The position numbers and the translations under genes were made by a program. Positions 8,460 to 35,403 of a DNA stretch of 35,787 bases are shown here, in pieces. The notes under the pieces were generated by a model. It made no database searches. It had not been told where the DNA came from and saw only the letters and a list, made by a program, of their open reading frames with translations. Positions within the stretch are counted from its first letter, which is position 1. Every line of letters begins with the position of its first letter. The stretch is taken from positions 1-35,787 of the IMG/VR virus record IMGVR_UViG_3300008113_000588. The stretch is one strand, 5' to 3'. Source of the stretch: a virus.

Positions 8460-8476
8460 ACTTTCTCCTGTATGGT

Positions 8477-8484: not shown

Positions 8485-8513
8485 CAACCTAGCATCAAAT
8501 CCACCAGTAACAA

Positions 8514-11534: not shown

Positions 11535-14500
11535 TTATCGACCCAGGGCCAGACTTTTTAATCTAGCCAAATCTGCATCATGTTGTTGACTTTCCTGAAC
11601 CTGACTCTCATGCATGCCACATTCGGCTAGGCCATGTTCGGGACACATTTCGCCTTCCATGGTATGGTTGCAGCCACCAGATTCATTTGTTTGATATTCA
11701 TCTAGGTCGTCATCCTTGTCAAGAATGGGAGTTTGTTTATATCGTGATTGTTTGCCAGATGATTTGACCCCTGGCTCGCCAGGTGTGCCATCCTGATAAT
11801 TTGTTTTGGTATGTTTGATACCGTGCGCGGTTTTTGTAACGATGCCGCCTTTGTGAGTTTTGACAGCATCATCACTGTCAAGATCTTCTGCAAATTCAGC
11901 CAACAGGCTTTCGGCTAGATTTTTGGCTTTGGCGGGCGCTGCAGGTTGCTTTGTAACTGGTGCAGTATTTGGAGATTTGAATCCCATAGTAGTTTTGCCG
12001 TATGCAGTGGGGCCTGCAAAATTAGCAGCAGCTGGCTTTGCGTATTTTTCCATTCCTGGCATTTTCATTACGTTACCAGCGTTGAATGTAGGAGCTGGTA
12101 CTGTACCAGCAGCAGCAGGTTTTGCGACTGCAGCAGGTTGAGTTGCTGTCTGTGCCGCAGGTTGTGCTGCTGAGCTCGGCTGACCAGCAGTTGTGCTGGT
12201 TGCCATTGGCAAGGGTTTAGTGGCTGCAGGTTGAGTGGCTGCAGGTTGAGTGGCTGTGGTTGCTGGCGCTGCGCCAGCTGGCGAGGTTGACGGGGTAGGC
12301 ACTGGTTTGTCAACAGGAATATTTCTAGACATTGTGGGCTGAGCTCCTGGCTCGCCTGCAAATGGTATTTGCATGCTGGCAAACACTTGTTTGATAGTGG
12401 CTGCTGGAACTCCTGCATTCTGAATAACTTTGGCCACATCTAAGCTGTCAGTAGGGCTCTTGGCTTTTTTCCAGGCCTGCAATAGTTTGTCAGCAGTTAC
12501 TTTTGTGGTTAGATTAGTGCCTTTGGTCTTGACGTAATCTGCTGCTTTGCCGGCTGCACCTTTGATGGTGTCCATAATACCTTCATCAAGTTTGCGTTGG
12601 CGATCAACTATGTTTCCAATCACAAGATATATCTGTGATTCGGATAATTTTCTTGACTCGTTCATCCCACCTGCGCGGTTTGCAGCAACCATAGCAGCTT
12701 TTTGTGCTATACTCTCTATACTCTGTTGAGCTAATTTTCCGCCAGCTGCAGATCCGAATTGGTCAATAGCACCTTGAACTGTACCAGCTATAGTATTTAC
12801 AGAATTTGGATCAATACCTCCAGCAATCGCATCTTCTGCAGCTTTCAAGGCAATAGCTTCTACTTCTTGACGTAGTGCTTTTCCGGCTAATTTAGAAACA
12901 TCAGTAGCACTAGAAGCAGCACTAGAGGCAGCTTGTTGGGCAGCTTGATATGATGCACTGCCGACTGTGTCAGTTGGGCCAGCTGGATTCCACTGTCCCA
13001 CAACAGAGTCTGTTCCGTCAGGTACTTTTGATACCATAGAAAAATCGCCGTGCTGTGCTTGAATGTCTACGGTATCGCCTGGCATTTTTGGTGTACCGTC
13101 AGGATATTCTCCAAGATCTCCGCCAACACCGCCTTCAGGCTTGCCTTTAATAAGGTCGCCTAGTTTACTAGCACCGTAGGCCATGGCGCCTGTCTTGGCA
13201 CCTGAATAAGCAGCAGATGTAAATCGTTCGCCTTTTAGCAGATTGTCAGCCATTTTGAGCAAACCTAATGCAGCGGCCCCACCTATGCCAGCGCCGCTGA
13301 TACCAGCCACAGCAATTAATGCAGCATATATGGCACCTTGTGCCACAGGGTGTTTTTTGGCAAAATCTCTATACTTCTGTGCCCATTTATTAACTTCACC
13401 ATTGAATTGGGGATCTGCAGAACCTACACCAATTTTGCTGAGAACATCACTTACTTTCTGATCAAATCCTTGCACAGGACCTGAATTTTGCATTTTAGTT
13501 TTGAGACCTTCCCAGGCTTTGTTAACTGCTGATGCTGCATCCTTGCCCTTGCCAATCATGGTACGGTTGTCACCTGCGGCTGTGGCATTTTGTTGTACCT
13601 GTTGAAAAATCTGATTGATCTGATCAACTGTCAATTGTGCTTCGACTAGTTTATGTCCGGCACTTTCCCACAGCTTGTAGGTTCGGGATTCAGTCAGCAT
13701 GGTGGTATTTGTATTTTTCCAACCTTCGGCTAGGTCTTTTGCTTTGGCTTCTTTTTCTAAATCTTGTTGACGTTGTTGCACAGCTTTTTGATCTACACCC
13801 GGGTTTCTTGACAGGTCTTGTAGTGCTCGGCGTTTGGCCACTAGGTCTGCTTTGTCTCGAAGAGCTGTTTCTGTCACGCCTTGACCTAATTGTTTTAGAT
13901 CATTAGTATTGACATCTTGCGTGACACCCCCCATGCCTTTTTCAATTGTGATTCGAGCACGTTTACGATCTTTAGACAGGGCAACAACTTCCGCCTTTTG
14001 ACCAAGATACTTCACTATGTCGCCAACTTGGATCATTTTCATAATAGCACCGCCGACATCCACTTTAGTATCACCAGCAAAGCGACCCTGGTCTCCCCAA
14101 GGATCGTCGCCTTCTGTCACACCTTGCTCATCTAGTCCACGTTGTTTTCTTAGTTTGTGCAGACTACGGAATTGATTGCGTTTGTTGGGGCGCGGAAGAT
14201 CAGCCAGCGCACTTTCTTGAACAGGCTGTTGAGCAGCAGGATCAACTGCAGGTTCGGCAGCAGGATCAACTGCAGGTTCGGCAGTAGGCAGCTGGACACC
14301 CAGTTCAGCCAGGCGTGTTTGTATTTCAGAATCGTCCCAGACATTGGCCGATGCATCACGAGCAGCCAGTTCTTCCAGTCGATCAAACAACACATCATCG
14401 CCCACTAGGTCATACAGTTGTTGTGTGGCATTGGTAGCGTCGGGTCCCACGATCAGTTCACGACTCATGAGTTCCTGCAGCTTGTTTTGTTGTTCAGGAG

Positions 14501-15500
14501 TTTCAGGCAACTGCCAGGTGCCTTCGGTCAGGTGATCAGCCCAGGATTCAAATATGTCAGCTTCTTTCATTCGGTTTTCCTGTTGTAGTCGTGCCAGCAC
14601 AGGCAGTGCTGCTTCAATTCTAGAATCCAGAGTCTGTTCCACAAACATGGTCTTGATAGAGTCTACCAGTTCTTCTTGTAGTGTGGTTTCGGCAGGGTGC
14701 CAGGATTCAAAATAGGCTTGATAGCCACGTGTGTGAGCCATGCGTTTGAGATTCTCACGCAGGCTTTTGTAATATTGTTGTGCTTCAGTTACCAGTTCAG
14801 CAGTGACTCCTTCCAGCACACGACCGGCACTGGCTCGATTGAATCTACTCAAGGTGGCGATCTCGCTTACCATTTCTGTGATGTGACTGCCACGCACATC
14901 ATAGGGCCGGCCACCTTGGCGCACATGCTCCAGCATGGCTCGACCGCCAGCTAGGTTCTTGAACTGTAGACGATATCGTTCTGAATCAGCTGTTTCAATA
15001 AACAAACTCTCCACATAGCGGAAACGTGCATCCGTTTCGCCCAGCACACGATTGTGCTGAATAACTAATCTTGCCTCAGTGGGCTCACCAGAGTAGCTGA
15101 TCCGGCGTGTGCCATAGTAGCCTTCGAACAGGCCTTCTTTGATGGCTGCAAGACCCTGCATGGTATACTTGACTTGGTTGATGTTCTTGGGACTGTAGGT
15201 CCAACGACGCATGTTGGCAAACTTGTGCAGGTGCTGCACAAAGTCAAAGAATTCTGTTTTGTCATCGCCTTCCATGCTGCGACCCAGGTTGTCCCCGTAG
15301 AACACCTGCATTTCGTTGTCAGTGTCCAGGATGACGACCATGGTTCCGTAGTTTTTGCCGCTGCTGCTCACAAAGTCAAATGTAAAAATTTCAGCATTTT
15401 CAGCGTCTGTGGGACGACCCTCTTTGTCCAACAGTTCGGCTTGGAAATCACGACTGGCCAGCAGGTCGTTTAGTTGTGAGGAGATGTTTTCTTGTGCCAT
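11535..15500 (-). CDS. Giant modular protein, putative internal or structural virion protein
   Basis: A 1,321-residue protein of no known enzyme family. Residues 1-290 form a conserved region (F-T-F-D-F-V-S-S-S-G, F-Y-G-D-N-L-G) that I recognise from aquatic T4-like phages. Next come helical, acidic parts, an A-E-P-A-V-D-P-A tandem repeat, and a small beta domain (I-Q-V-G-D-I-V-K-Y-L-G) bounded by two Q-G-V-T-E linkers (residues about 459 and 540). A glycine/alanine-rich hydrophobic segment near residues 718-745 could cross a membrane. A Pro/Ala/Thr/Gln-rich stretch follows near 1060-1150. The end has C-N-H-T-M-E-G-E-M-C-P-E-H-G-L-A-E-C, a likely metal knot. Many L/V-x-E-S/A/G sites suit a prohead protease. 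It may be an ejected internal protein. A late box lies seven bases before ATG. Confidence 0.7.
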   Translation of the reverse strand: MAQENISSQLNDLLASRDFQAELLDKEGRPTDAENAEIFTFDFVSSSGKNYGTMVVILDTDNEMQVFYGDNLGRSMEGDDKTEFFDFVQHLHKFANMRRWTYSPKNINQVKYTMQGLAAIKEGLFEGYYGTRRISYSGEPTEARLVIQHNRVLGETDARFRYVESLFIETADSERYRLQFKNLAGGRAMLEHVRQGGRPYDVRGSHITEMVSEIATLSRFNRASAGRVLEGVTAELVTEAQQYYKSLRENLKRMAHTRGYQAYFESWHPAETTLQEELVDSIKTMFVEQTLDSRIEAALPVLARLQQENRMKEADIFESWADHLTEGTWQLPETPEQQNKLQELMSRELIVGPDATNATQQLYDLVGDDVLFDRLEELAARDASANVWDDSEIQTRLAELGVQLPTAEPAVDPAAEPAVDPAAQQPVQESALADLPRPNKRNQFRSLHKLRKQRGLDEQGVTEGDDPWGDQGRFAGDTKVDVGGAIMKMIQVGDIVKYLGQKAEVVALSKDRKRARITIEKGMGGVTQDVNTNDLKQLGQGVTETALRDKADLVAKRRALQDLSRNPGVDQKAVQQRQQDLEKEAKAKDLAEGWKNTNTTMLTESRTYKLWESAGHKLVEAQLTVDQINQIFQQVQQNATAAGDNRTMIGKGKDAASAVNKAWEGLKTKMQNSGPVQGFDQKVSDVLSKIGVGSADPQFNGEVNKWAQKYRDFAKKHPVAQGAIYAALIAVAGISGAGIGGAAALGLLKMADNLLKGERFTSAAYSGAKTGAMAYGASKLGDLIKGKPEGGVGGDLGEYPDGTPKMPGDTVDIQAQHGDFSMVSKVPDGTDSVVGQWNPAGPTDTVGSASYQAAQQAASSAASSATDVSKLAGKALRQEVEAIALKAAEDAIAGGIDPNSVNTIAGTVQGAIDQFGSAAGGKLAQQSIESIAQKAAMVAANRAGGMNESRKLSESQIYLVIGNIVDRQRKLDEGIMDTIKGAAGKAADYVKTKGTNLTTKVTADKLLQAWKKAKSPTDSLDVAKVIQNAGVPAATIKQVFASMQIPFAGEPGAQPTMSRNIPVDKPVPTPSTSPAGAAPATTATQPAATQPAATKPLPMATSTTAGQPSSAAQPAAQTATQPAAVAKPAAAGTVPAPTFNAGNVMKMPGMEKYAKPAAANFAGPTAYGKTTMGFKSPNTAPVTKQPAAPAKAKNLAESLLAEFAEDLDSDDAVKTHKGGIVTKTAHGIKHTKTNYQDGTPGEPGVKSSGKQSRYKQTPILDKDDDLDEYQTNESGGCNHTMEGEMCPEHGLAECGMHESQVQESQQHDADLARLKSLALGR
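12221..12257 (-). repeat. 15-base tandem repeat (A-T-Q-P-A coding)
   Basis: TGGCTGCAGGTTGAG is present at 12221-12235 and 12236-12250, followed by a partial copy. On the coding minus strand it encodes repeated A-T-Q-P-A units in the low-complexity linker of the large modular protein. Slippage at such units would change linker length in frame. Confidence 0.75.
13869..14126 (-). repeat. Direct repeats bounding an 81-codon cassette (Q-G-V-T-E linkers)
   Basis: TTCTGTCACACCTTG at 14112-14126 and TTCTGTCACGCCTTG at 13869-13883 match at 14 of 15 bases. On the coding strand both encode Q-G-V-T-E, and their spacing is 243 bases, exactly 81 codons. They enclose a self-contained beta-rich domain with I-Q-V-G-D-I-V-K-Y-L-G, which looks SH3-like. 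The arrangement mirrors the 67-codon cassette in the gene at 20697-22109. Confidence 0.75.
14236..14283 (-). repeat. 24-base perfect tandem repeat
   Basis: GCAGGATCAACTGCAGGTTC plus GGCA is repeated exactly at 14236-14259 and 14260-14283. It encodes two copies of an eight-residue A-E-P-A-V-D-P-A unit in a flexible linker of the large modular protein. Perfect identity suggests a recent duplication. Confidence 0.85.
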
Positions 15501-15527: not shown

Positions 15528-17111
15528 TCAGCCCATGACAGATATAAACGGGAAAGGTTCCACAATGGTGTCCCCGTGATCTTTAAGGTGTGCGTCCAGT
15601 TCAGAGTGATAGGTCTGCAGCATCATCAGCATGCGAACTGCCAGCAGGCTGCTCATCACAAGGTCGTCAGTTTCGCCGGGTTTGGCAGCATAACTGGTGC
15701 CGTGTGCCACAAAGTTCTTGAGTTCGCTGACCAGGGGTCTGCTGCGTATCTGCATGCGTCCCGACTCTACCAGAATCTTGAACTTGTTGCAGGCTGTGAT
15801 CTTGCTCTTGTGTGTGGTGTTGAATCCCTTGCGGAATCGTCGTCCCGAACTGCCTGTGACCGAGTTATCGCTGAGGAAATAGCCTGGTATGTTTTCTTCT
15901 CCGTATTCTGCAATGGAGATTAACGCTGCTTCGCCCAGAGTATTGTTTTCCACTGAGTAGTAGATGCTTTTGTCGTCCCGTGTGATTGCGTGTAGTTCTC
16001 GGATGATATCTACCAAGATGCGGATCTGTGTGGGTATGTCAGTTCGATTGTGACGCCATTCGGCCACTTGTTCAGTAGTGCCTGCTTCAAACACCTGTAT
16101 GGCAGCAGGATCGCTGCCGGTGCCTAAGCTGGGATCCAGAGCCACAATGTACATGGCATTGGGCTTGGGTTCAGAATACCATCGCACCTGACCTGTTTTG
16201 CGAATGGGTTCTATACCTTCCAGGTCCATCAGCCGGATAGGTGCAATTAGTGTTTCATCGTTGATCACAAACTCACAGTCGATCTCTCGACGGAATCGTT
16301 CTTCGCCCAGTTGCGCTAGTTGTTCAGACCCCCATCGATCTCCACGTTCAGGGTGTTCTCGCCAGTAACTGCGAAACGCTCGAAATCCATTGATGCCTAA
16401 TTCAGTTTGATTGCCGTGCTCATCTTCGGTCTTGTTGGCACCTTTCCACAAGAACGCAAACTGATCTTCGTCGCTGTTGGGAGTTGATGTAATAATAGCC
16501 TTACCACCTGTTGCAAGTGTGGGAGAGATTGAAGTCCAAAACTCTTTGGCAATAGTAGGTCTCACAAAAGCAAATTCGTCAGCGTACAGTAGCGAGATAC
16601 TCATACCCCGGCCAGTTGTTTCTGTTGTGGTTTGCGAAACAATACGTGATCCGTTTTCAAACTCTATGGATCCCTTGTTGTAACTGGTGCTGCCCGCACG
16701 TATGTGATTAGGGCACAGCTCGTATGCGTATCTGATACGCTGCATAATCTCCTGTGCACCTGTGTACTTGTGTGCAGCAATAAGAATTGTTGAATCTGGC
16801 ACAAACATGGCATACCACAGCAAATATCCCGCGGCACTGGTTGACTTGCCGGTCTGTCTTGGCATCAAGCTGATGCTGAATCGATAGTTGTGATAGGTGT
16901 GTATCAGACGCTTTTGATATTCAAACGGATGGTACAACATCTTGCCTCGTGTGGGGTGCTGTATGTAGAAAAAGTTATCCATGAAATACAGCGGACCAGT
17001 CACCGGGTCAGCACAGGCCGCAAACTCTCGCAGTTCCTGTTCTGTATATATTTCTTTACGGTGCGGGCTCTTGACCAGCGCTTGTTCCATTTGTGGTTTA
17101 GGTAAGATCAT
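15528..17111 (-). CDS. 17: Terminase large subunit, T4 gp17-like
   Basis: A 527-residue DNA packaging motor. The Walker A region is M-P-R-Q-T-G-K-S-T at about 83-91, Walker B with catalytic Glu is I-S-L-L-Y-A-D-E-F-A-F near 180, and the coupling motif T-S-T-P-N follows. The C-terminal RNase H-like nuclease shows I-V-A-L-D-P-S-L-G-T-G-S-D, Y-S-V-E-N-N and G-E-T-D-D-L-V-M-S, supplying the metal-binding acidic residues. It pumps DNA into the prohead and cuts concatemers. Start 17111 overlaps the SGNH gene by 14 bases and has no clear ribosome site; ATG 17090 is an alternative. The small subunit lies about 8.5 kb away instead of directly upstream, which is unusual. Confidence 0.95.
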   Translation of the reverse strand: MILPKPQMEQALVKSPHRKEIYTEQELREFAACADPVTGPLYFMDNFFYIQHPTRGKMLYHPFEYQKRLIHTYHNYRFSISLMPRQTGKSTSAAGYLLWYAMFVPDSTILIAAHKYTGAQEIMQRIRYAYELCPNHIRAGSTSYNKGSIEFENGSRIVSQTTTETTGRGMSISLLYADEFAFVRPTIAKEFWTSISPTLATGGKAIITSTPNSDEDQFAFLWKGANKTEDEHGNQTELGINGFRAFRSYWREHPERGDRWGSEQLAQLGEERFRREIDCEFVINDETLIAPIRLMDLEGIEPIRKTGQVRWYSEPKPNAMYIVALDPSLGTGSDPAAIQVFEAGTTEQVAEWRHNRTDIPTQIRILVDIIRELHAITRDDKSIYYSVENNTLGEAALISIAEYGEENIPGYFLSDNSVTGSSGRRFRKGFNTTHKSKITACNKFKILVESGRMQIRSRPLVSELKNFVAHGTSYAAKPGETDDLVMSSLLAVRMLMMLQTYHSELDAHLKDHGDTIVEPFPFISVMG

Positions 17112-17872: not shown

Positions 17873-18421
17873 TTAAGATGCAGGCACTAGCCAAACATAG
17901 CTAGTAAGTCTAAAAGTCCCAGCCGGCACTGGAGTTGGCATATCATGCCAGAGTAATTTTCTGTAGCCATTGCGATCAGCTTGATTGATCATGGCATAGC
18001 CCGAATTAGACACAGCCGGAACTTGATATCTAATTGCAGCAGGATCTTTGTACCAATAAAAACAAGTGGCTGGGCCGGTCCAGTTTAGATGCAGACTACC
18101 TGGCATTTCGCCATCAGTATGCATGCCGCAAACAAACCCAGGTTCGTCTAACCAAAATGCAGTGCCTGCATAAGGTGCCAGTTCAGTGTTTAATTGCTGT
18201 TGTATATATTCCCAGGAATCAGCAATTTCCTGGTGCCATCTACTGATCCAAAGAATTGCTGATTCAATAATTCGGCGTCGGGCCCAATTTTCCTGGCCTT
18301 CTTGTTTGATCCAAGGCAGAGAAAGCCAGTCGGTTGTTAATACCAATTGGGCCAACTCAGACGACACTGCGTCTGTGACTCGAAACAGGTTGTTTTGATC
18401 GTCAACTGGTGTTATTTGCAT
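17873..18421 (-). CDS. 2-oxoglutarate/Fe(II)-dependent oxygenase-like protein
   Basis: A 182-residue protein with the metal triad of 2OG-Fe(II) oxygenases: H101-T-D103 in G-M-H-T-D-G, then H159 in L-W-H-D-M, and R171 in G-T-F-R-L-T-S-Y as the likely 2-oxoglutarate-binding arginine. Spacing H-x-D to distal H (about 56) and H to R (12) fits the double-stranded beta-helix fold. Such phage enzymes hydroxylate proteins, sugars or nucleotides. The N-terminal 90 residues are rich in Trp and Gln and may form the substrate lid. Start 18421 overlaps the radical SAM gene end by ten bases, so the two are co-expressed and may act on one substrate. Confidence 0.78.
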   Translation of the reverse strand: MQITPVDDQNNLFRVTDAVSSELAQLVLTTDWLSLPWIKQEGQENWARRRIIESAILWISRWHQEIADSWEYIQQQLNTELAPYAGTAFWLDEPGFVCGMHTDGEMPGSLHLNWTGPATCFYWYKDPAAIRYQVPAVSNSGYAMINQADRNGYRKLLWHDMPTPVPAGTFRLTSYVWLVPAS

Positions 18422-19539
18422 AGTCTTTCCAGTTCAGGCCATAACATTGCAAAGCAACCCTGACTATTTTTATGATATGTGTGCTCAATTTTGTGCGTGT
18501 GCTGCTGGAATTTGTAGCCTAGGTCGTCTCCATTTTTTTGAGCATGCAGAACTGATTCAAAAAAATCTCTTTCGTTAGGCAAGCATATATTGCTATTGAG
18601 CAGGATCTTTATTTCGTTACGAGTGAGTGCAGCAACATCGGCGCCCAGTCTACAAGGGTCAAGATAGTCGGGCTGGTACAGGCTCTGCCAGTGAATGGTC
18701 AGGCCACGCAACCGAGCAAAAGCATGAAACTCCTGCAGTCTTGATGCATTATAGATGTTGTACACAGCATGTATACCTCCCCGGTGGCCTTGTGATTTCA
18801 TAAGTCCTTGTATGACGTCAAGATTATGTTCCAACAACTGCCAAGTGGCGCCATGCCGCACATATTCAAACCGTGACTCTATGTTGTCAAAGCTGATGCT
18901 CCAGCCTACTCGGCTGCGTTGTGCCAGTTTTTGAAATATCTGATTGCGTTCAAGTTCTACACTGAGATTGGTGATCAGGGTCACAATGCAGTCCCGGGGT
19001 ATCACATCCAACAAGCGAGCATTTTCGGGCAACAGCAAGGGCTCACCGCCTACTAGCGCAACTTCTTTAATGTATTCCTGATGTTGTTCCAGATAATCAC
19101 ACACTTGTTCGTAGTAAGGGCGAGTACCAGACTTGACGGGCACGCCTTTGAGTGCGGCCCATCGGGAACTACAAGCTTCGCCACAATAGTTACAACTGAG
19201 ATTGCAGGTGGTATTCCATCGCACATCAATCAACACAGGATGATGTTCTGTGTCCGACGCTGTTGCAGGATCAAATTCAGGGTTTAGATTGTTGTGCCAA
19301 TCTCGCTCACTACGTCCATAGCGTTCGGCCTGCACACAGTTATAGCAGTAGGTGGGTGCTTTGCCCAATCTAATGCTTTGCCGTATCTGTTGTAGTGCAG
19401 GGCTGTGCAAGATTTCTTCAATGGTGTGCTCATCAAGATTGCCCAGCATGTTGGGATCGCCAGCACAGCAAGTTTTGACATCACCACGAGGATTGATATG
19501 TAGGCCTCTCCAGGGAGCGGCACAAAAGAAATTGCCCAT
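18412..19539 (-). CDS. Radical SAM protein with N-terminal SPASM/twitch-like cluster
   Basis: A 375-residue radical SAM enzyme. The core C-x3-C-x2-C motif is C-N-L-S-C-N-Y-C at C112, C116 and C119, followed by L-V-G-G-E-P-L-L near 163, the GGE-type SAM contact. Before it, C6, C24-C25, C65 and C68 (C-A-A-P-W-R-G-L, V-K-T-C-C-A-G, Y-C-Y-N-C) form a SPASM/twitch-like auxiliary iron-sulfur site with the usual I-L-H-S-P-x-L helix between. This N-terminal placing is seen in other phage proteins of the type. Such enzymes modify peptides, or sometimes sugars, by radical chemistry. The substrate here is unknown. It begins inside an unusual hairpin and overlaps the oxygenase gene downstream. Confidence 0.88.
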   Translation of the reverse strand: MGNFFCAAPWRGLHINPRGDVKTCCAGDPNMLGNLDEHTIEEILHSPALQQIRQSIRLGKAPTYCYNCVQAERYGRSERDWHNNLNPEFDPATASDTEHHPVLIDVRWNTTCNLSCNYCGEACSSRWAALKGVPVKSGTRPYYEQVCDYLEQHQEYIKEVALVGGEPLLLPENARLLDVIPRDCIVTLITNLSVELERNQIFQKLAQRSRVGWSISFDNIESRFEYVRHGATWQLLEHNLDVIQGLMKSQGHRGGIHAVYNIYNASRLQEFHAFARLRGLTIHWQSLYQPDYLDPCRLGADVAALTRNEIKILLNSNICLPNERDFFESVLHAQKNGDDLGYKFQQHTHKIEHTYHKNSQGCFAMLWPELERLCK

Positions 19540-19580: not shown

Positions 19581-20027
19581 TCAGTTGCACCAACTGGTCT
19601 TGGCTTCGCCATAGTACTCACGAGCATGACCATTGGCAATCAAGCCGCGACGCACACTTTGGCCATTCACAACAATGTCGCCTATGACTCGGCCGCCAAA
19701 CTTGTCCCACTTGTATAAGATCACTTGGTGCTGAGCACTGCTGGCCACAAGAGTCTTGGTCCAGGCGCTGGCCTTTTCTGCAGCAGCAGCTTCGGCCGGG
19801 CAGGCTGCACGATGTCCTTTTTCAGGAGTATCCACACCGTAAATTCGCACAGCCAGTTCAGGCTTGAGTGGTGCGGGCAAGTAAGGTGCAGCAATCACAA
19901 TGGTATCACCGTCACTGACTCGAACAATCTTGGCAGTGTATTCTACGCCCGCAGGTTCTTTGGGTGCAGTTGTTTGTGCAAAGGCCAGAACAGGCACCAG
20001 TAACAGTGCTACAAATAGTTTTTTCAT
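19581..20027 (-). CDS. Secreted thermonuclease (SNase-like)
   Basis: A 148-residue staphylococcal-nuclease-like enzyme. Residues 1-17 (M-K-K-L-F-V-A-L-L-L-V-P-V-L-A-F-A) are a typical Sec signal peptide with an A-F-A cleavage site. The nuclease domain shows R-V-S-D-G-D-T-I-V-I, V-R-I-Y-G-V-D-T-P-E-K-G and K-F-G-G-R-V-I-G-D, giving the catalytic Arg-Asp-Glu-Arg set of the family, and ends with a Cys. It would degrade DNA or RNA in the periplasm, perhaps that of competing phages or host debris. Its ATG overlaps the previous stop (TAATG) and AAAGGATAC supplies a ribosome site. Most T4-like phages keep nucleases cytoplasmic, so export is notable. Confidence 0.88.
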   Translation of the reverse strand: MKKLFVALLLVPVLAFAQTTAPKEPAGVEYTAKIVRVSDGDTIVIAAPYLPAPLKPELAVRIYGVDTPEKGHRAACPAEAAAAEKASAWTKTLVASSAQHQVILYKWDKFGGRVIGDIVVNGQSVRRGLIANGHAREYYGEAKTSWCN

Positions 20028-20275
20028 TAGTATCCTTTGAACGCTTGTATGGGACTTTGTTTGTGGGTGCTGGGCACTTCTTCGGACTCCATGTCACCAG
20101 CATTCAAATCTTTATATTCAGCACCAGCCGCTCGGAACGCCTGTTTCAACATTTCGTGCTCAATTTCAGTGTAAGGATAGGCACCACGTTTTTTTCCTAT
20201 CCATGATTTTTCATCCATGTCCAACACATCGCCGGATCCGTCGGCCATAGAAACCGCCATCATCACACGATTCAA
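20027..20275 (-). CDS. Small conserved phage protein, function unknown
   Basis: An 82-residue protein with the strongly patterned centre L-D-M-D-E-K-S-W-I-G-K-K-R-G-A-Y-P-Y-T-E and the tail P-S-T-H-K-Q-S-P-I-Q-A-F-K-G-Y. I recognise this kind of sequence from aquatic T4-like phages but not a function. TTG at 20275 overlaps the upstream stop as TTGA and gives the full length; ATG at 20263 or 20260 would make it slightly shorter. It lies between two small structural-looking genes and the nuclease gene in a compact run of overlapping frames. Confidence 0.68.
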   Translation of the reverse strand: MNRVMMAVSMADGSGDVLDMDEKSWIGKKRGAYPYTEIEHEMLKQAFRAAGAEYKDLNAGDMESEEVPSTHKQSPIQAFKGY

Positions 20276-20511
20276 GGTATAGTCACTGTGGCACCTGTAA
20301 TTGTGACCTGATTGCCGGCACCCACATACACATCACGCATGTAGTTGGCTGGAATACTTGGCTGTGCTGAATACAAGTTGCCTGCTGGCACATCAGATCC
20401 CAGGGCCACTGCATACACCTGATAGGTCACTGCGGTGTTGCCTGTGGCAATACGCAGTTTGTCTGTGTAGACCACGGCGTTGGCCAGGCTGGTATAAACG
20501 TTGGCTGACAT
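20272..20511 (-). CDS. Small beta-rich protein, possible virion component
   Basis: A 79-residue protein rich in Thr, Val and Ala, with alternating beta pattern (V-Y-T-S-L-A-N-A-V-V-Y, T-Y-Q-V-Y-A-V-A) and ending V-T-I-T-G-A-T-V-T-I-P. It has no charged core and no signal peptide, and resembles short tail or decoration proteins in composition only. Its ATG overlaps the stop of the upstream 55-residue gene by one base (TAATG), and its own stop overlaps the next start, so it is translationally coupled on both sides. Confidence 0.6.
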   Translation of the reverse strand: MSANVYTSLANAVVYTDKLRIATGNTAVTYQVYAVALGSDVPAGNLYSAQPSIPANYMRDVYVGAGNQVTITGATVTIP

Positions 20512-20696: not shown

Positions 20697-22109
20697 TTAC
20701 CAGGCGCGGCAACTCCAATAGCGGGCCTTGTGGCGTGGCCCTGGATTGTCGCAGTTGTGACGAGCACGGAAGTTTTTGCGGCGTCCCGGAATGCTCTTTT
20801 TAATCTTCATGCCCTTTTGTCCAAAATTGACTTTGACCACACGACCTTGCGGGTTCTTTACATAAACTTTGGATTTTTTAACATCTCCTGCCATGGGTTT
20901 ACCCAAGGGCACTTTGCGACCTTGGTATTCGGCTTCGTTCATGCCGTTGGCACCATACATGGATTCTAATTCTTGGCCTACCAGGGCTGCAGCGTCAACC
21001 ACTGTCATGCCCGAGAATGTGCCTTGCTCGGCCATGTCCACCACTGCGTCTTCCACTTCGCCCATGCCATAGTCGTCAAACCATGTGGGATTATGACGCT
21101 CAATGTGTCGCAACAGTTTGCTCACGCTGGCCATTGTGGCAGCTTCGTTTAACGAGCCTTCCGCCACACCTTGCTTCGTCAAGTGTCGGAGTTCTTGTAC
21201 TGCTTCTTCGAAACTGTCAAATCCCGACAGGTCTTTGCCCGAAGCATAGTGTTTCATGTAATACTGACCAACGCCGGGACTGGATTCGCGGTCGATGCCA
21301 ACTTCGCCCACTGGCTGCCCATTTTTTTTGAATATTTTCCTTTGTTGATCTGCGTGACCTTCCGCCACACCTTGGTCCAGGCTGTCCAAAATTTCTTGAA
21401 CCATGTTGACCCAACCGCTGACATCGCTGGTGCCAATTTCGTCTACATCGCCCACTAAGTCAGCAACATCATCTACGGCTTGCATCACACGCTCAGGGCC
21501 GTGCTGGGACAACATGCCTGGATGACGCATCATGATGCGGTGCAGAGTGGCACGGGCTACAGGACTGTCTTCATTTTTCTTGTCACTGTCTAACCAAGGG
21601 TATCTGGATTCAGTTGCTGGCTGTTCCATGACGCCACGCTCTTTTTTACTGGAGATGTAGTCAGATGCAGTGTCCACATAGTCAGTGGCTTTGTTGATCT
21701 TTTTCTGTGTCCACTCGGGCATGTTGTCATTGTTATCCAGCATACCAATCAGTTTACGAGCCGAACGAATCATGGTCATGAGTTCGTCTTTGGCCATGTC
21801 GCCTTCTTGATCATACTCGCCTGGATCCTGACCAACATCAGTCTCATCGCCGTACTCGTCAGCTGACTGACCGCAGCCGCAGCCCGAGCCACCACATTCC
21901 ATGCAGGTTTGTTCAAAACTATAACCATAACTTTCCAACAACTGCATCATGCGTTCGTCTGCAGCAATGACCACACCGTCGTCGCGGCTCTCAACCACAA
22001 CACTTTCGATCAAGCATTCTTCACGAATGTTGATGGCAAAATTGTCGCCCACCACAGGATTATCTGCGGCTTCTTCGGATTCTGACAAGTAGTCGCGAAA
22101 GTTCTTCAT
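20697..22109 (-). CDS. Modular acidic protein with capsid-targeting-like leader
   Basis: A 470-residue protein. The start at ATG 22109 (M-K-N-F-R-D-Y-L-S-E-S) follows the upstream stop by two bases with AAAGG ahead of it; this leader resembles T4 capsid-targeting sequences such as M-K-T-Y-Q-E-F-I-A-E. Modules in order are: a beta region with D-D-G-V-V-I-A-A-D-E, a cysteine knot C-M-E-C-G-G-S-G-C-G-C-G, a helical module (M-P-E-W-T-Q-K-K-I-N-K-A), and helices M-M-R-H-P-G-M-L. Then comes a 67-codon cassette bounded by Q-G-V-A-E-G twice, and a final conserved region V-K-N-P-Q-G-R-V-V-K-V-N-F-G with R-H-N-C-D and A-R-Y-W-S-C-R-A-W, similar to the DUF5872-like tail. I infer a packaged internal protein. 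Confidence 0.68.
   Translation of the reverse strand: MKNFRDYLSESEEAADNPVVGDNFAINIREECLIESVVVESRDDGVVIAADERMMQLLESYGYSFEQTCMECGGSGCGCGQSADEYGDETDVGQDPGEYDQEGDMAKDELMTMIRSARKLIGMLDNNDNMPEWTQKKINKATDYVDTASDYISSKKERGVMEQPATESRYPWLDSDKKNEDSPVARATLHRIMMRHPGMLSQHGPERVMQAVDDVADLVGDVDEIGTSDVSGWVNMVQEILDSLDQGVAEGHADQQRKIFKKNGQPVGEVGIDRESSPGVGQYYMKHYASGKDLSGFDSFEEAVQELRHLTKQGVAEGSLNEAATMASVSKLLRHIERHNPTWFDDYGMGEVEDAVVDMAEQGTFSGMTVVDAAALVGQELESMYGANGMNEAEYQGRKVPLGKPMAGDVKKSKVYVKNPQGRVVKVNFGQKGMKIKKSIPGRRKNFRARHNCDNPGPRHKARYWSCRAW
21157..21374 (-). repeat. 17-base perfect direct repeats bounding a 67-codon cassette (Q-G-V-A-E-G)
   Basis: CCTTCCGCCACACCTTG is present exactly at 21157-21173 and 21358-21374. 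On the coding strand each copy encodes Q-G-V-A-E-G, and the 201-base spacing is 67 codons, so gain or loss of the unit keeps the frame. The enclosed segment (F-K-K-N-G-Q-P-V-G-E-V-G-I-D, Y-Y-M-K-H-Y-A-S-G-K-D) looks like a complete small domain. Confidence 0.88.
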
Positions 22110-22111
22110 GA

Positions 22112-24931
22112 TTAGCCTTTGTATGTGTTCCAAAGATTCTGCAAATCAAAGATGCTTTCTTTTACAGCTTTTTCTTTTTTGTCATCCACAGCTTTTTTCA
22201 TTGGCTCTGATTTGTCGCCGTCTTTGTCCATGTCCAAGAAGTCAGGCTTGGTTTTTTTAACACCGGCCATTTCCATCATGCGGGCCAGATCATCTTGACC
22301 TGATCCTGAACTGATTAATGATTCAAAGTCGCTCAACAAATCTTTTGCATACGCATCCATGTTTCTGAATTCGCCACCGTCTTGAGTTCCGTAGGTGTCT
22401 ACCACTGCTTCCACTGCTGCTTCGGCATTGCCTTGTTTGAGATAAGCAATGGCTCGATCCACATCAGGGTCGCCATACACACGCATCTGAGTCATGTTGC
22501 GATCAAAGTCACCCACTAGGTCACGCACTTGATCTGCCATGTTGGAATCTGCGGCTTCGTCCAAATTGTCATCTTCATCGTCTTCTTTGTGCACTGTGCT
22601 CACAGCAGTGACTTGACCTGTGGATTGACCATCGCCGGCCACGTCTGTCTTGGGCTTGTTGATACCACCTGAATATTGGAAAGCATCGTTGCTGGTTTCT
22701 GTGTTGGTTGGCCAGTCAGGCTTGTTTTCATCCACCATGTCAGGTGCCTGACTGTAGGACTCGCCATGATTGTGGTCGCTGCCCAGGCCGGCCATTTTCA
22801 ACATCATGGCCAGTTTGTCTGCGTCATCGTCTGTGGCAGTGATTGTGAGGCTTTTGGTTGGGCCACCGTGGCTGTCGCTGTTCATGTTCATGCTGATGTT
22901 CATGCTTTCGTCTAGACGACTCATGCTTTCAGAAATCATGTTTTCTAGATCACGGTTCATGCTGTCATAGATGCCGCCACCAAAGTTAAAACCGCCGCTG
23001 CTCTTTTTGCCGCCCTCTGCTGGTGCAGTGGCCACGCTGCCGCTGGTGGTAGTTTCTTCAACTTTTTCTTCTTTGGCTTTTTTGGCTGGCTTTTTGTCAC
23101 TGTCTTTCGCCTTGACTTTTTCTGGCAGGCCCTTGTGCTTGGTGCTGGCAAACTTGTCAGCTTCTTTGGCACTGATACCTTTGGCTGCTTTGGCAACTTC
23201 TTTTGAAGCAGGCTTCTCGCCTTTCTTGGCAGCATGAACCATGCCCATGAAACGCTGTTGCTTCTTGCTCACAGCTTTTTCATTCATTTGCTCTTCGTCG
23301 TCCTGGTTGTATTTTATCTTTTCCAACACACCTTGCAAGGTATTGCCCAGGGAGTTGCTGCCTGCTTCAAATGCTCGGTCCATCAAATCTTGAATGAATT
23401 CCACATCTTCTATAGTGGTCCAGGTCTGTGGATCAGACTCTTCGCCCACCATCTTGTGTTTGGTCACGGCACCTTTGTGCTTGGGCAGGTTAACCTTGCC
23501 CACACCAAATGCTGACCAGTCAGGCTTCATGACTTGACCTGTTTCGCTGTCGGCATTTTTCTTGGGACGACCACGTCCACGCTGTGTCTGCACTTTGGGA
23601 GCTTCTTCGTCGTCCTTGCGACCATAGCCGCCAGGTTCACTAGTATGACGACGTCCGCCAGGAATTTCTTTGACTGCCTCCTCCATGTTTTGATCACTTT
23701 CGATCCAGGCCAGCACATCCTCATAGTCATAGCCCAGTTTTTCTGCTGCTGTTTGTTCAGCATCTTCAGGTTCAAGATTGGGATTCAGCATCATCAAGTG
23801 ACGTTTTTTACGTGCAACTTTATTCCAGTCAGCTTGAGTGAATTCGTCCGCTGCTTCTGCCATGCCACGCACAGGTTGCTTGCCTTTGCCCAGTGCAGCT
23901 TTCATGGCTTCGGCTGCTACATCGCCCAGCATCTCGTCAACTTCTTTTTTGGCGCCGGCAATCTTGTCGGCAAAAGTGATCTTGTCTTTGGGCTCAGCCA
24001 AGGCAGCGAATGATTTTTGCTTGGCACTCATGGGTGCTGCAGCCTCTTTCATGCCTACTACCTTGTCCAACATGGCAGCGGCATGAGCAAGACGATCAGT
24101 TAGATCATATTGGCTAATATGTTGAGCAATATTGCCACCTCTCATGGGAGCAATACCATCTTCTTTGCTGCCCACTTCTACGTTATCAATCAAGTCGAGG
24201 TATTTGCCAATTACAGCACGAGCCTTTTTAAATTCAGGCGAACGGTCGCTGCCGAATGTAGCATTTAACACATCTCTCAAGTTATCCACGGTTCTTCCGG
24301 GATTATTCATTTCTTGTTCAACAGCAGCCAATAGATCTGCAGGTCCTTCTTGGTCGTTTTCTTTTACAGGACGACGGCCACCAGTCTTGCGTTCTAGGTC
24401 ACGCAGCAAGTCTTCGTCGCCAGGTGCCACAAAGTCAGCTACCTTTTTCACGCCCTTGGCAATCTTGCCCATCACGCCTGGCTTCTTACCCACCTTGGCA
24501 AAGTCTGGGTTTAGCTCCATAGCGTCTTTAGTGTGATTGCCTTCTTCCATGCTCTCATCATACTTGTCAAACTTGTTGCGCACAGGGTCCAATGCCTTGC
24601 CTTCACGTCCAGCCTTGGCCAGGGCCTGCATGCCATCTTTGCCATATTTTTCAATGCCCTTGGCGGCACGACTCATGCCGGCTTCATCAACTTTTTTGCT
24701 CTTGATTGACAGGCCCTTGGTCAAGTCGCCGGCACTACCGCCAAATTTGTCCTGCATTTTGGATTTGTAATCAGGCTTTTGTTTAGCGGCCTGTTTCATA
24801 GGCTCTTTTTTGTTGCCGTCTCGGTCCAGGTCTAGGAAGTCTGGCTTGCTCTCATTCAGTTGCTTGTGGGTAGTTTCAGGCAATTCACGAATGCCGTTGA
24901 GTTTTTTGTTTAGATCGTAGAAAAATGACAT
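22112..24931 (-). CDS. Large low-complexity modular protein with EF-hand-like and AT-hook motifs
   Basis: A 939-residue, highly charged protein. It begins M-S-F-F-Y-D-L-N-K-K, and Q-L-N-E-S near residue 25 would suit prohead protease. Two related repeats, K-P-D-F-L-D-L-D-R-D-G-N (residues 29-40) and K-P-D-F-L-D-M-D-K-D-G-D (895-906), resemble a calcium-binding EF-hand or dockerin loop and frame the protein. Between them are a helical middle, an AT-hook-like R-G-R-G-R-P-K-K near 450, a DUF3008-like module (K-K-Q-Q-R-F-M-G-M-V, F-A-S-T-K-H-K-G-L-P) near 552-606, a Lys/Glu stretch, and a Met/Ser/Asp-rich part. The composition suggests a DNA-associated internal head or scaffold-like protein. AGAGGATAA precedes the ATG, and a two-base gap separates it from the next gene. 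Confidence 0.68.
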   Translation of the reverse strand: MSFFYDLNKKLNGIRELPETTHKQLNESKPDFLDLDRDGNKKEPMKQAAKQKPDYKSKMQDKFGGSAGDLTKGLSIKSKKVDEAGMSRAAKGIEKYGKDGMQALAKAGREGKALDPVRNKFDKYDESMEEGNHTKDAMELNPDFAKVGKKPGVMGKIAKGVKKVADFVAPGDEDLLRDLERKTGGRRPVKENDQEGPADLLAAVEQEMNNPGRTVDNLRDVLNATFGSDRSPEFKKARAVIGKYLDLIDNVEVGSKEDGIAPMRGGNIAQHISQYDLTDRLAHAAAMLDKVVGMKEAAAPMSAKQKSFAALAEPKDKITFADKIAGAKKEVDEMLGDVAAEAMKAALGKGKQPVRGMAEAADEFTQADWNKVARKKRHLMMLNPNLEPEDAEQTAAEKLGYDYEDVLAWIESDQNMEEAVKEIPGGRRHTSEPGGYGRKDDEEAPKVQTQRGRGRPKKNADSETGQVMKPDWSAFGVGKVNLPKHKGAVTKHKMVGEESDPQTWTTIEDVEFIQDLMDRAFEAGSNSLGNTLQGVLEKIKYNQDDEEQMNEKAVSKKQQRFMGMVHAAKKGEKPASKEVAKAAKGISAKEADKFASTKHKGLPEKVKAKDSDKKPAKKAKEEKVEETTTSGSVATAPAEGGKKSSGGFNFGGGIYDSMNRDLENMISESMSRLDESMNISMNMNSDSHGGPTKSLTITATDDDADKLAMMLKMAGLGSDHNHGESYSQAPDMVDENKPDWPTNTETSNDAFQYSGGINKPKTDVAGDGQSTGQVTAVSTVHKEDDEDDNLDEAADSNMADQVRDLVGDFDRNMTQMRVYGDPDVDRAIAYLKQGNAEAAVEAVVDTYGTQDGGEFRNMDAYAKDLLSDFESLISSGSGQDDLARMMEMAGVKKTKPDFLDMDKDGDKSEPMKKAVDDKKEKAVKESIFDLQNLWNTYKG

Positions 24932-24937
24932 AGTAAA

Positions 24938-25546
24938 TTATCCTCTTGGTTGGGCGCCAGTTGCTGGCCGGGGTGGACGCTTGATTGTGGCAAAAGGACT
25001 CTTGGTGCCCATTGGCAAATCATTTGTGGTTTTGGCTGGGGGTGTCTTGCCGCCTGCTATTGTGAAATCTGATCGATAGGCGTTTTTCAACACCACGTGA
25101 TCGTGAGGCTCAGCACTGTAATCTTTGATTAGAGCACGTTGCTCAGCATCGTCTGCTGGGTAGTCAGTATCGCTCAAGAGATCTCGATTCTGGTCCGCAA
25201 TCTTTTCTGCTTCTTGAGCCATGCTTTCTTCGTAGGGCACAGTGTTCATCACAATGCGATTTGGATCAAGTCCGCACAATTGTGCCAACTGTTTGACTTG
25301 TGGTTCTACAGCAGGGTATCGAAACTCCACATCAACCATGCTCATGCTTTGATTGGGGTATGCTGGAAAGTCAGTGTTGATCTTACGCACAGGAGTGGAT
25401 TTGACGTCAGACATTTTGACAATGTCGAACTGGGCCAGTTTAGACTTGAGGTCTCGAACAAAGCCTTCGGGAACGTCGCCCACCATCTTGATGCGATATC
25501 GATAAGTGCGTTCGCTTTCAGCAAGGTATTTTGCAAGTGTATTCAT
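24938..25546 (-). CDS. Conserved phage protein with capsid-targeting-like leader, function unknown
   Basis: A 202-residue protein starting M-N-T-L-A-K-Y-L-A-E-S-E. The leader resembles those at 20697-22109 and 35125-35403, with aromatic/aliphatic residues then x-E at about position 10. Next is an alpha/beta region (Y-R-Y-R-I-K-M-V-G-D, F-D-I-V-K-M-S-D-V-K, M-V-D-V-E-F-R-Y-P) that looks like a small ferredoxin-like fold, then a helix with C-G-L-D-P-N-R-I, and a Pro-rich basic tail. I recognise homologues only as uncharacterised phage proteins. An AATAAATA box and AATAGGATAC ribosome site precede the ATG. It lies directly downstream of the probable gp16. Confidence 0.68.
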   Translation of the reverse strand: MNTLAKYLAESERTYRYRIKMVGDVPEGFVRDLKSKLAQFDIVKMSDVKSTPVRKINTDFPAYPNQSMSMVDVEFRYPAVEPQVKQLAQLCGLDPNRIVMNTVPYEESMAQEAEKIADQNRDLLSDTDYPADDAEQRALIKDYSAEPHDHVVLKNAYRSDFTIAGGKTPPAKTTNDLPMGTKSPFATIKRPPRPATGAQPRG

Positions 25547-25563: not shown

Positions 25564-25571
25564 TATTTATT
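25564..25571 (-). promoter_or_regulatory. Late promoter box AATAAATA
   Basis: The minus strand reads AATAAATA, overlapping the stop codon of the gp16-like gene (25567-25569). It is followed by TAGGA and the ATG at 25546, leaving room for a short leader with a normal ribosome site. It may start the transcript for the modular-protein block 25546-20697. Confidence 0.6.
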
Positions 25572-26091
25572 CTTTTGTTGCGTTTTGATCTTTACGACCC
25601 AACAAACGCTCCAATAAATCATTGCGACTCAGCACCACGCCTGTGGCTGTTTGTGTGGTTTCGTCATCTTCAGGAGCTTTCTTTTGATCAATCAACTGCT
25701 GCTGCTGGTCTAAGCGCATTTTTTTCATCTGTAGATCAATCATCTTGAGTTTTTTGTCCAGCTTGGCTGTTTTGGCTGTGATAGCATGGCCCAGCATGTT
25801 GCTGGCTACTGAGAATATTTCGCTGGCAAAACGGCTGTCTACCTGCATGCCTAGATTGGACAAATCTTGATAACTTTCTACAGCCATCCTCGCTAACTCA
25901 TCCATTTCTGAATCAGCCATATCGAGTCCTTTGACTGTTGGGAGTGCTGCTTCTATTTTGTCGATTGTGTCGTCTAAGGCAACTAGTGTTTCCCTATTAA
26001 CCGAAATTGAGGGAACTGATTCACTGACGTCGTTGGGTGTGATTGGTAATTCAAACAGTTCTTCTAATTGTTTGTTGGTAGATAAAGTCAT
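25567..26091 (-). CDS. 16: Probable terminase small subunit, gp16-like
   Basis: A 174-residue protein with a long central helical region: M-D-E-L-A-R-M-A-V-E-S-Y-Q-D-L, F-A-S-E-I-F-S-V-A-S-N-M-L-G-H-A-I, then K-L-D-K-K-L-K-M-I-D-L-Q-M-K-K-M-R. This matches the pattern of T4-like gp16 proteins, which form rings, recognise DNA for packaging and regulate gp17. The start is set at ATG 26091 because a CTAAATA box ends four bases upstream and the endonuclease gene stops at 26099; the longer frame from TTG 26127 would run through that box. In relatives gp16 is next to gp17, but here they are 8.5 kb apart. Assignment rests on helix pattern and context. Confidence 0.68.
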   Translation of the reverse strand: MTLSTNKQLEELFELPITPNDVSESVPSISVNRETLVALDDTIDKIEAALPTVKGLDMADSEMDELARMAVESYQDLSNLGMQVDSRFASEIFSVASNMLGHAITAKTAKLDKKLKMIDLQMKKMRLDQQQQLIDQKKAPEDDETTQTATGVVLSRNDLLERLLGRKDQNATKE

Positions 26092-26095
26092 ACCA

Positions 26096-26102
26096 TATTT
26101 AG
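26096..26102 (-). promoter_or_regulatory. Late promoter box CTAAATA directly before gp16
   Basis: CTAAATA on the minus strand shares its TAA with the stop codon of the GIY-YIG-like gene and lies four bases before the gp16 ATG. No ribosome site fits between, so the transcript is probably leaderless or nearly so. CTAAATA is the late-box form known from T4-like cyanophages. Confidence 0.65.
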
Positions 26103-26701
26103 TGGATAAGACGTTGGTAACTTTCAAAGTCTGCCCGATGCAGCAGTGAGTATTTGACTTTATCCCACGTGATGTTTAATTTTTTAGAAATTTGTAAATT
26201 GTTAAGCCCAGTGTCATAAAGCCTAATGATCTGCAGTGCTAATTCTAGATTCTTTTCTAGATAGGTAGTTAACGTTGATTGTCGTTTTTTATCGGTCCAG
26301 GATTGCCCTTTTCTCAAAGCTGCATTTTTAAGGCAGTTGGTCAGTCTGGACTGCACAGCTTTTTCAGTCCATACTTTTGATTCCTGATAGTGTTTAATTT
26401 TTTCTTTTGTTGATGTTGACATTTTACCTGAGCCGCCTTCCCCAGTTTCTGGTTTTAAATTAGCCCATGCATTGTCATCAACAACATTCCATAAGTTACT
26501 GTAATATTGCCCCCAATATTTTATTTCATCATTAGTTTGGCATTCTTTAAGAATTTCAGTGGTTACATCATTTCCGTGTTTTAATAGATGACGACACCAA
26601 TATACGCCTGATCCTTTGTACTTGTATGGATTTTGTATTGTTTTACCTAGGTATTTTAACCCAGTTCTGTTATGTGTTTTCACATAGAGATAAGTAGACA
26701 T
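26099..26701 (-). CDS. GIY-YIG-like homing endonuclease
   Basis: A 200-residue free-standing endonuclease of the Seg/GIY-YIG kind. The N-terminus has Y-L-Y-V-K-T-H-N-R-T-G-L-K-Y-L-G-K-T, a divergent GIY-YIG core (Y-L-Y and Y-L-G), then Y-K-G-S-G-V-Y-W near residue 30 and the conserved E-I-L-K-E. The C-terminal part has R-L-Y-D-T-G-L-N-N-L-Q-I-S-K-K-L-N-I, a helix-turn-helix for DNA targeting. The DNA is clearly more AT-rich than its neighbours. AAAAGGAG precedes the ATG at 26701. It sits exactly between gp4 and gp16, with late boxes on both sides sharing TAA stop codons. It should cut related genomes that lack it. Confidence 0.82.
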   Translation of the reverse strand: MSTYLYVKTHNRTGLKYLGKTIQNPYKYKGSGVYWCRHLLKHGNDVTTEILKECQTNDEIKYWGQYYSNLWNVVDDNAWANLKPETGEGGSGKMSTSTKEKIKHYQESKVWTEKAVQSRLTNCLKNAALRKGQSWTDKKRQSTLTTYLEKNLELALQIIRLYDTGLNNLQISKKLNITWDKVKYSLLHRADFESYQRLIH

Positions 26702-26761: not shown

Positions 26762-27193
26762 TTATTTAGCACCGTTCTTAAATAAATCCTGCTCTGTAAT
26801 CACCCTAAACGTCATGCCATTGCGTTGTGCCCACTTGGTCGCTTGAGCCCACTTGGCGTAGTTGATTGCAACCACAGCACGGTCTCGTGAACTCATTTTG
26901 GATTCCACCACGCTTTGTTTTTTGGGCTTGATTTCGATCAGTTCAGCCCGCATGGTGTTGTTGCGAGTTCTGTAAGTGATCAAGAAGTCTGGCACATAGA
27001 TGGTTTGCTTACCAGTCAGTGGATGACGATAGGGTATCTGTATGCTTTCGCTGGCCCATTGCAGCACATGATCGTTTGAATCGCAGAACTTCATGAAACT
27101 GAATTCCCAGCCTGAACGATATCTTGGGGCACGGGTGCCCACATACTTGTCCTTGTTGATGACTTCGTATGTGCCTTGTGCCCACTTGCTCAT
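26762..27193 (-). CDS. 4: Head completion protein, T4 gp4-like
   Basis: A 143-residue protein of the T4 gp4 family, which finishes the packaged head so that a tail can join; the fold is related to restriction-type nucleases. Blocks seen are Y-R-S-G-W-E-F-S-F-M-K-F-C-D, V-L-Q-W-A-S-E, I-P-Y-x-H-P-L-T-G-K, Y-V-P-D-F-L-I-T-Y, and A-E-L-I-E-I-K-P-K-K-Q, with the P-D ... E-I-K pattern typical of PD-(D/E)xK active sites. Length matches T4 gp4 (about 150 residues). The start overlaps the upstream stop as ATGA, and its TAA stop forms part of a late promoter box. Confidence 0.9.
   Translation of the reverse strand: MSKWAQGTYEVINKDKYVGTRAPRYRSGWEFSFMKFCDSNDHVLQWASESIQIPYRHPLTGKQTIYVPDFLITYRTRNNTMRAELIEIKPKKQSVVESKMSSRDRAVVAINYAKWAQATKWAQRNGMTFRVITEQDLFKNGAK
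26763..26769 (-). promoter_or_regulatory. Late promoter box CTAAATA before the homing endonuclease
   Basis: CTAAATA on the minus strand overlaps the gp4 stop codon and precedes a 60-base gap with the AAAAGGAG ribosome site of the endonuclease gene. It has the same TAA-sharing form as the box at 26096-26102, which suggests the endonuclease was inserted at, and duplicated, the original gp4-gp16 junction. The rest of the gap holds a GTTCCGCGAAC mini-hairpin. Confidence 0.65.
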
Positions 27194-35124: not shown

Positions 35125-35403
35125 CTATCGATACTTGTTCAGTTTGGCGGCCAATTTAGCTGCTGGATTTAGACGCTTGGTGCGCTTGGCTTTGCGAGCT
35201 TGACGTACTTTGGTTTTGGCACGAGTCAGTTTCATAGCAGAAGACTTTTCCCGATCCAGGCTAGCTGAACATTGGTTAGGTTCTGCCACTATGCGTCCTT
35301 TCCTGGGCCCGGCCGCACAGCGCCATTTCATGCCGAGCTTGCCAGTCTTAGCATTGCGTTTGAACACTTTTTTGTTCTCAGTTACGAATTCACTAGCTCT
35401 CAT
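35125..35403 (-). CDS. Small basic protein with capsid-targeting-like leader
   Basis: A 92-residue protein. It starts M-R-A-S-E-F-V-T-E-N, a leader with aliphatic/aromatic residues and x-E at position 9, like T4 capsid-targeting sequences. The rest is strongly basic: M-K-W-R-C-A-A-G-P-R-K-G-R-I-V near residue 25, then N-Q-C, and a C-terminal R-Q-A-R-K-A-K-R-T-K-R-L-N-P-A. It probably binds nucleic acid and could be packaged in the head. I recognise relatives in aquatic phages without a named function. The ATG overlaps the upstream stop (TAATG). Its two cysteines might bind metal. Confidence 0.7.
   Translation of the reverse strand: MRASEFVTENKKVFKRNAKTGKLGMKWRCAAGPRKGRIVAEPNQCSASLDREKSSAMKLTRAKTKVRQARKAKRTKRLNPAAKLAAKLNKYR

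Follow-up and report, generated by a model that had tools for sequence, protein, structure and literature searches.

Introduction

The closest described counterparts of the proteins studied here are the internal proteins IPI-III and Alt of phage T4, which bear a capsid targeting sequence (CTS) of about ten residues, MKTYQEFIAEA, and are cut by the prohead protease gp21. Suppressor genetics in T4 has assigned CTS residues 4 and 7 to capsid targeting and residues 8 and 10 to processing, and gp21 is known to cleave after L/I-X-E and the protease of phiKZ after S/A-X-E (reviewed in PMC9026906). The giant phages phiKZ and SPN3US likewise have many head-internal proteins, the ejection or inner-body proteins, which are cut at S/A-x-E by a gp21-like protease acting after x-x-E; there it is mostly N-terminal propeptides that are removed (PMC10052503), and module arrays are lacking. 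A further group is formed by the polyvalent proteins, in which many unlike domains share one polypeptide and packaging and injection are predicted; in the parts of that paper considered here, self-processing is by an MPTase domain, and neither prohead-protease linkers nor a DNA word is described (Iyer et al. 2017, PMC5512222). CTS packaging and multi-effector proteins are already known. A full-text literature search, confined to open-access papers and hence weak evidence, gave no earlier description of cut-site punctuation placed on a recombining DNA word.

We analysed a window of 35,787 nucleotides, comprising the whole of the stretch given as IMG/VR virus record IMGVR_UViG_3300008113_000588, together with its environmental and cultured relatives. 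Our main reading, to which we assign a probability of roughly 0.6, is that the window encodes head-packaged cargo polyproteins of giant T4-like phages of the PA5oct/Paride clade, which would be cut by an S77 protease and whose modules would be swapped at a short DNA word. The T4 internal proteins have in common with them a leader of about ten residues (MKTLQDYLTES or MKKFQEYLAES against MKTYQEFIAEA), the L/I-x-E rule, an S77 protease in related genomes and fast-changing cargo. T4 cargo yields one mature protein per gene, whereas here many modules per gene are joined by cut-site-like linkers, and the clade adds a second leader type, MRAxEF[IV]xE. With the polyvalent proteins there are domain types in common, namely GNAT, ParB, peptidases and peptidoglycan hydrolases, in the parts of the paper considered (PMC5512222).

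Genomic context of the window

The TerL of the window (15528-17111, minus strand) was 51% identical to the TerL of PA5oct, MIJ3 and Paride, and the gene order from tail sheath to UvsX was the same as in PA5oct, where gp282, gp281, TerL, gp279 and gp278 follow one another in parallel to the window. ESI-MS/MS flags are attached to gp282, gp281, gp279 and gp278 in the deposited PA5oct record. The ORF at 25567-26127 matched PA5oct gp283 (E 2e-26), and a head-closure protein (phrog_218) is encoded at 26762-27193 (minus). Genes resembling glycosyltransferases and a radical-SAM/SPASM-like protein (CNLSCNYC), at 3762-4673 and 18412-19539, adjoin the structural genes and are unusual neighbours in a T4-like late region. 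By eye, two ORFs resembled homing endonucleases, at 7770-8513 and 26099-26701 (minus), one HNH-type with ERHHIIPKSLGG and one GIY-YIG-type, placed amid sugar-metabolism genes and amid head genes.

Putative cargo proteins

Five minus-strand proteins of the window were followed. The initial annotation had treated them as one family; they do not form one homologous family, and the leader type and the linker are their only common features. Its suggestion of virion association fared better, as homologues of two of the five, the 202-aa and 1,321-aa proteins, are MS-flagged in PA5oct (gp282 and gp278), the only route by which virion presence is known. Pfam recognised no catalytic domain in the window's own proteins, no MPTase domain was among the Pfam matches seen, and the match to the proposed AT-hook scored 14.9 bits, which is below the Pfam cut-off of 17.4.

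The 470-aa cassette protein (20697-22109) consists of a leader and INIREE head, variable modules and a constant RYWSCRAW tail (phrog_7595). Its 13 orthologues span 150-757 aa with constant ends, a variable middle and 0 to 4 GVxE sites. The leader, MKNFRDYLSE/S (22077-22109, minus; slashes mark predicted cuts), has E10 as an invariant column of the orthologue alignment. Two QGVAEG words follow, at residues 246-251 (CAAGGTGTGGCGGAAGGT, 21357-21374, minus) and 313-318 (CAAGGTGTGGCGGAAGGC, 21156-21173, minus), which bound a HADQQRK module that recurs in other genes. The C-terminal tail domain (20700-20933, minus) is preceded by an invariant E392-A393, usually as [MVLI]xE/A. A search with this protein returned contigs sharing only residues ~246-337, that is, the stretch between the QGVAE sites and slightly past, which recurs in otherwise unlike proteins and at times in tandem. 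Its structural model (pLDDT 55.6) was too poor to judge linker exposure.

The 1,321-aa protein (11535-15500, minus) begins with a part homologous to the PA5oct virion protein gp278 (phrog_13484; E 5e-19) and continues with modules, among which lie a variant of the word, QGVTEG (residues 459-464, 14109-14126, minus), and a diverged one, QGVTET (residues 540-545, 13866-13883, minus). QGV[A/T]E, the site named in the initial annotation, thus occurs twice in the 470-aa protein (residues 246 and 313) and twice in this one (residues 459 and 540). The 939-aa protein (22112-24931, minus) is of low complexity with EF-hand-like ends, and its residues 553-606 resemble DUF3008 slightly under the Pfam cut-off. 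It holds the gene position of PA5oct gp281 with no detectable similarity to it, so the claim is limited to gene position.

The 202-aa protein (24938-25546, minus) is 28% identical to the PA5oct virion protein gp282 over residues 1-102. Its predicted structure (mean pLDDT 64.5) comprises a T4-CTS-like helix, a ferredoxin-like alpha/beta domain (residues 15-102) and a disordered tail; the best fold matches, ribosomal protein S6 and PII-like proteins, were weak, and therefore no function is claimed. The 92-aa basic protein (35125-35403, minus) has the leader MRASEFVTE/N (35377-35403), of a type common to dozens of otherwise different genes. Elsewhere, an 82-aa ORF (20027-20275, minus) lacks the leader part with which its relatives L085 and L086 start (MRAREF), and an unrelated 79-aa gene (20272-20511) abuts it; the leader was likely lost by truncation or replacement.

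N-terminal leaders

The three N-termini singled out by the initial annotation, MKNFRDYLSES (from 22109 down), MNTLAKYLAES (from 25546 down) and MRASEFVTEN (from 35403 down), are indeed encoded on the minus strand, and their proposed likeness to T4 is borne out by conserved columns that coincide with the T4 targeting and processing positions. The leader of the 202-aa protein, MNTLAKYLAE/S (25514-25546, minus), has a predicted cut after E10, and among 52 environmental homologues F4 was kept in 51 and Y7, L8, E10 and S11 in all 52, with positions 3, 5 and 6 variable. This is a leader of about ten residues with the targeting and processing residues at 4, 7, 8 and 10, and it agrees with the T4 CTS in both position and residue type. 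PA5oct gp282 starts MKSFRDYYDAS, keeping positions 4 and 7 and having Ala at 10 instead of Glu; in the T4 CTS, Asp at 10 stops processing with targeting unaffected. The homologue in Atu_ph07, AUZ94910 (L459, MF403008.1, about 85061-85154, minus), is annotated too short, and reading upstream gives MKTLQDYLTESKKCYTYH with the leader MKTLQDYLTES, very close to the T4 sequence. The upstream extension of the frame, to MKTLQDYLTESKKCYTYHVKF, restores the leader.

The second type, MRAxEF[IV]xE, heads dozens of different genes, the 92-aa protein being one example, and leader genes are dispersed across the genome G013. A rule-based leader was present in 49 of the 101 cassette proteins with a complete start, about half, and the same first rule matched 15% of other ORFs, so that chance hits are mixed in; a stricter test of P1 was used for this reason. 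Among ATG ORFs with Shine-Dalgarno-like upstream sequence and an N-terminus fitting M[RK]x(1-2)[DENQ][FILM][ILVF]x, P1 was Glu in 128 of 207 (62%), compared with a background of 7.8%, taken at position 9 across all such ORFs. As Glu is enriched and the leader codons vary, selection acts on the protein. A leader profile trained on environmental cassette proteins and applied to PA5oct scored at least 4 in 6 of 93 MS-detected virion proteins against 2 of 306 other ORFs (p=0.0026; negatives from our own ORF calls). The difference lies in the top scorers, and the median scores of MS-positive and MS-negative proteins did not differ. One example, gp333 (MKINDIITEG), is encoded next to the portal.

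Predicted cut-site density and the S77 protease

The many L/V-x-E-S/A/G sites noticed earlier in the 939- and 1,321-aa proteins proved to be a true excess. Against composition-preserving shuffles of 23 window proteins, [LIVM]xE[SAGN] occurred 20 times in the 1,321-aa protein (4.9 expected, p<0.001), 12 times in the 939-aa protein (4.0 expected, p<0.001) and 8 times in the 470-aa protein (2.4 expected, p=0.003), and the other 20 of the 23 had no significant excess. Six scaffold proteins of the clade that adjoin S77 and the major capsid protein (MCP), from related contigs and PA5oct, had 9-17 such sites against 2.3-3.2 expected. The suspected proteins resemble a gp22-type scaffold in their high L/I-x-E density and differ from it in gene place, lying between head closure and TerL and not beside S77 and the MCP, where the clade scaffold gene itself sits.

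As the window is a 36-kb fragment, for which no larger assembly exists, it holds no S77 gene. Genes for S77 (PF03420) were found in PA5oct, MIJ3, Atu_ph07 and 12 of the 14 contigs that carry the word and reach 250 kb or more; the two without a match, G001 and G011, are linear records that may be incomplete. The MCPs have ..LLESRW.ETKEALLEGL.. near their start. Candidate S77 cut-site peptides would be KQGVAEGS, MKKFQEYLAESERT and, from the scaffold, AINEAWE, all predicted.

A conserved DNA word at module junctions

The exact 18-mer CAAGGTGTGGCGGAAGGC was present in at least 120 viral contigs. Among the matches listed, each of the 154 copies lay in a long ORF (median 578 aa) and encoded QGVAEG there, and the distance between copies was divisible by three in 33 of 34 cases; of a replicate word ending in T, 114 of 116 copies encoded QGVAEG. 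At 43 QGVAEG sites chosen independently of the DNA search, Ala was encoded by GCG in 35 (81%, background 10%), Val by GTG in 39 (background 27%) and Gly by GGT in 40 (background 44%). DNA conservation around the word ends after ~18-20 nt, with differing flanks, and the modules between sites have a median length of 76 aa. PA5oct and MIJ3 lack the word. Bacterial genomes gave 26 matches, each single and mostly in GC-rich sequence, which look like chance. A chance word in the phages was rejected, the reversed pattern giving 0 matches in the same large contigs, and a mobile palindromic element was also set aside, given a conserved block of just ~18-20 nt, differing flanks and no hairpin obvious by eye. 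Two marine cyanophage proteins (L457:1811-3166 and L458:1757-3238) share some modules (DACYxKVKxxxxVWPSAYASG.LV.CRKxGA) and lack QGVAEG; one of the two genes lies directly downstream of gp16.

Shared DNA between cassette genes ends on the word roughly 100-fold more often than expected at random: of the internal ends of near-identical matches, 17.5% fell on the word in both genes against 0.15% for random positions, the match pairs behind this figure not being independent, and 193 of 520 word sites were the junction of one pair or more. L105 and L208, for instance, match at 99.3% identity for 1,789 nt and diverge exactly at the word. At the protein level, 20% of match ends lay within 3 aa of GVxE, compared with 6% at random. 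On this sequence evidence QGVAEG is a DNA-conserved word marking the junctions of shuffled modules, a feature absent from the initial annotation. The constant ends and variable middle of the 470-aa orthologues illustrate the result of the word acting as such a junction.

Tat signals and putative cargo domains

Tat signal peptides function at N-termini. Each of the ten Tat signals inside cassette proteins had, 4-9 residues before it, the end of an [LIVM]xE, which holds for 17.7% of positions in general (P=3e-8). Some are directly preceded by QGVAE and others by LGE, INE or LEE without the word; those following an [LIVM]xE with no GVAE word were in L139, L356 and L402. Enrichment was confined to Tat signals, as general hydrophobic segments after GVAE were no more frequent than elsewhere (8.5% vs 9.3%). 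This placement lends strong but indirect support to the predicted cleavage of linkers, indirect because a module acquired as an entire gene would likewise bring along a signal at its start. Three solo genes (L173:3861-4493, L187:6264-6890 and L356:10501-11127) combine a leader MRA[ST]E[FI][VI][TA]E with a Tat signal and a GH19 hydrolase, as in MRATEFVTE/MDRRGFLRG; possibly they encode capsid-delivered periplasmic muramidases, or else Tat-exported endolysins.

Other domains of leader-bearing or cassette proteins included GNAT (L422, L269, L189), dCMP deaminase (L348, L412), DUF6321/DUF6267 and, both under cut-off, an M78-like peptidase (L280) and ParB-like domains. In L361:4002-5993 the leader MKFKEFLLE/N is combined with two domains, one cytidylyltransferase-like (CTP transferase) and the other a Zeta-toxin kinase (E 2.6e-9). 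Among the relatives, unlike domains thus occur in one polypeptide, namely GNAT with ParB in L422, Zeta with CTP transferase in L361 and deaminase with ParB in L412 (ParB under cut-off). The injected repertoire of polyvalent proteins is of a similar sort in the parts of that paper considered (PMC5512222).

Proposed mechanism and rival explanations

In the mechanism that we propose, a leader of about ten residues (MKxFxxYLAE/S or MRAxEF[IV]xE/) would dock each protein to the prohead core, like the T4 CTS. Once the prohead is complete, an S77 (gp21-type) protease would cleave after the Glu of [LIVM]-x-E; it would remove the leader, separate the modules at their GVAE/G linkers and often detach the tail domain, so that each gene would yield several separate proteins. 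Ejected along with the DNA, the pieces may then act in the host, and some, in which the cut has uncovered a Tat or Sec-like signal, would continue to the periplasm. In evolution, the conserved DNA word may serve as the junction for the gain, loss and movement of modules between genes and phages, by whatever recombination process. A wider claim, for which we would give somewhat less than even odds, is that the 18-nt word is protein cut site and DNA recombination junction in one, and thereby the base of a cassette system with which giant phages put together, rearrange and deliver, from a single gene, capsid cargo of several effectors, including Tat-dependent effectors that reach the host periplasm.

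It might instead be that QGVAEG is a cassette junction and nothing else. Modules would then be joined in frame through the word into large multidomain virion proteins of the polyvalent type that work uncut, and the resemblance to a protease site would be a coincidence. The codon conservation of the word (GCG 35/43, GTG 39/43, GGT 40/43) and its junction role need no proteolysis, and polyvalent proteins with 2-15 domains are described in the parts of that paper considered (PMC5512222). We nevertheless find this unlikely. The linker obeys the [LIVM]-x-E rule, and its residues reappear as signals at the protein level both at the leader, where codons vary, and ahead of the tail domain. Cassette proteins have an excess of cut sites like that of the scaffolds, and an [LIVM]xE precedes Tat signals also where the GVAE word is missing (L139, L356, L402).

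That very excess, with a density of [LIVM]xE[SAGN] equal to that of the clade scaffolds, is what one would expect of head core or scaffold parts shredded in maturation, like T4 gp22, gp67 and gp68, and mostly expelled, their modules being spacers and not effectors. The homologues gp278 and gp282, however, remain in mature PA5oct virions, and the modules are shuffled, often enzyme-like and in some cases furnished with export signals, which makes such an origin improbable. Equally, MS gives virion association alone and not location, and the genes sit amid tail tube, head closure and TerL, so they could encode neck, tail or baseplate proteins whose leaders are ordinary amphipathic N-terminal helices. 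The Glu-specific enrichment at P1, the T4-like pattern and the dispersal of leader genes over the G013 genome speak against this assignment, which we regard as the least probable of all.

Implications for giant phages

Under our preferred reading of head-packaged, protease-cut cargo polyproteins in giant phages of lakes and seas, modules are separated by a likely cut site, and therefore one gene could deliver several effector proteins into the bacterium. Paride kills dormant cells (PMC10761892), and if the reading is true, PA5oct and Paride relatives would be open to direct tests. The injected effectors of giant phages are otherwise hard to recognise; the leader (M[KR]xx..[FY][LIV]xE/) and the QGVAEG word would then form a key to them that needs only sequence, and many 'hypothetical proteins' would become testable candidates. 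The same phages would moreover offer a clear example of a single DNA word that punctuates proteins and at the same time serves as the junction where modules are exchanged.
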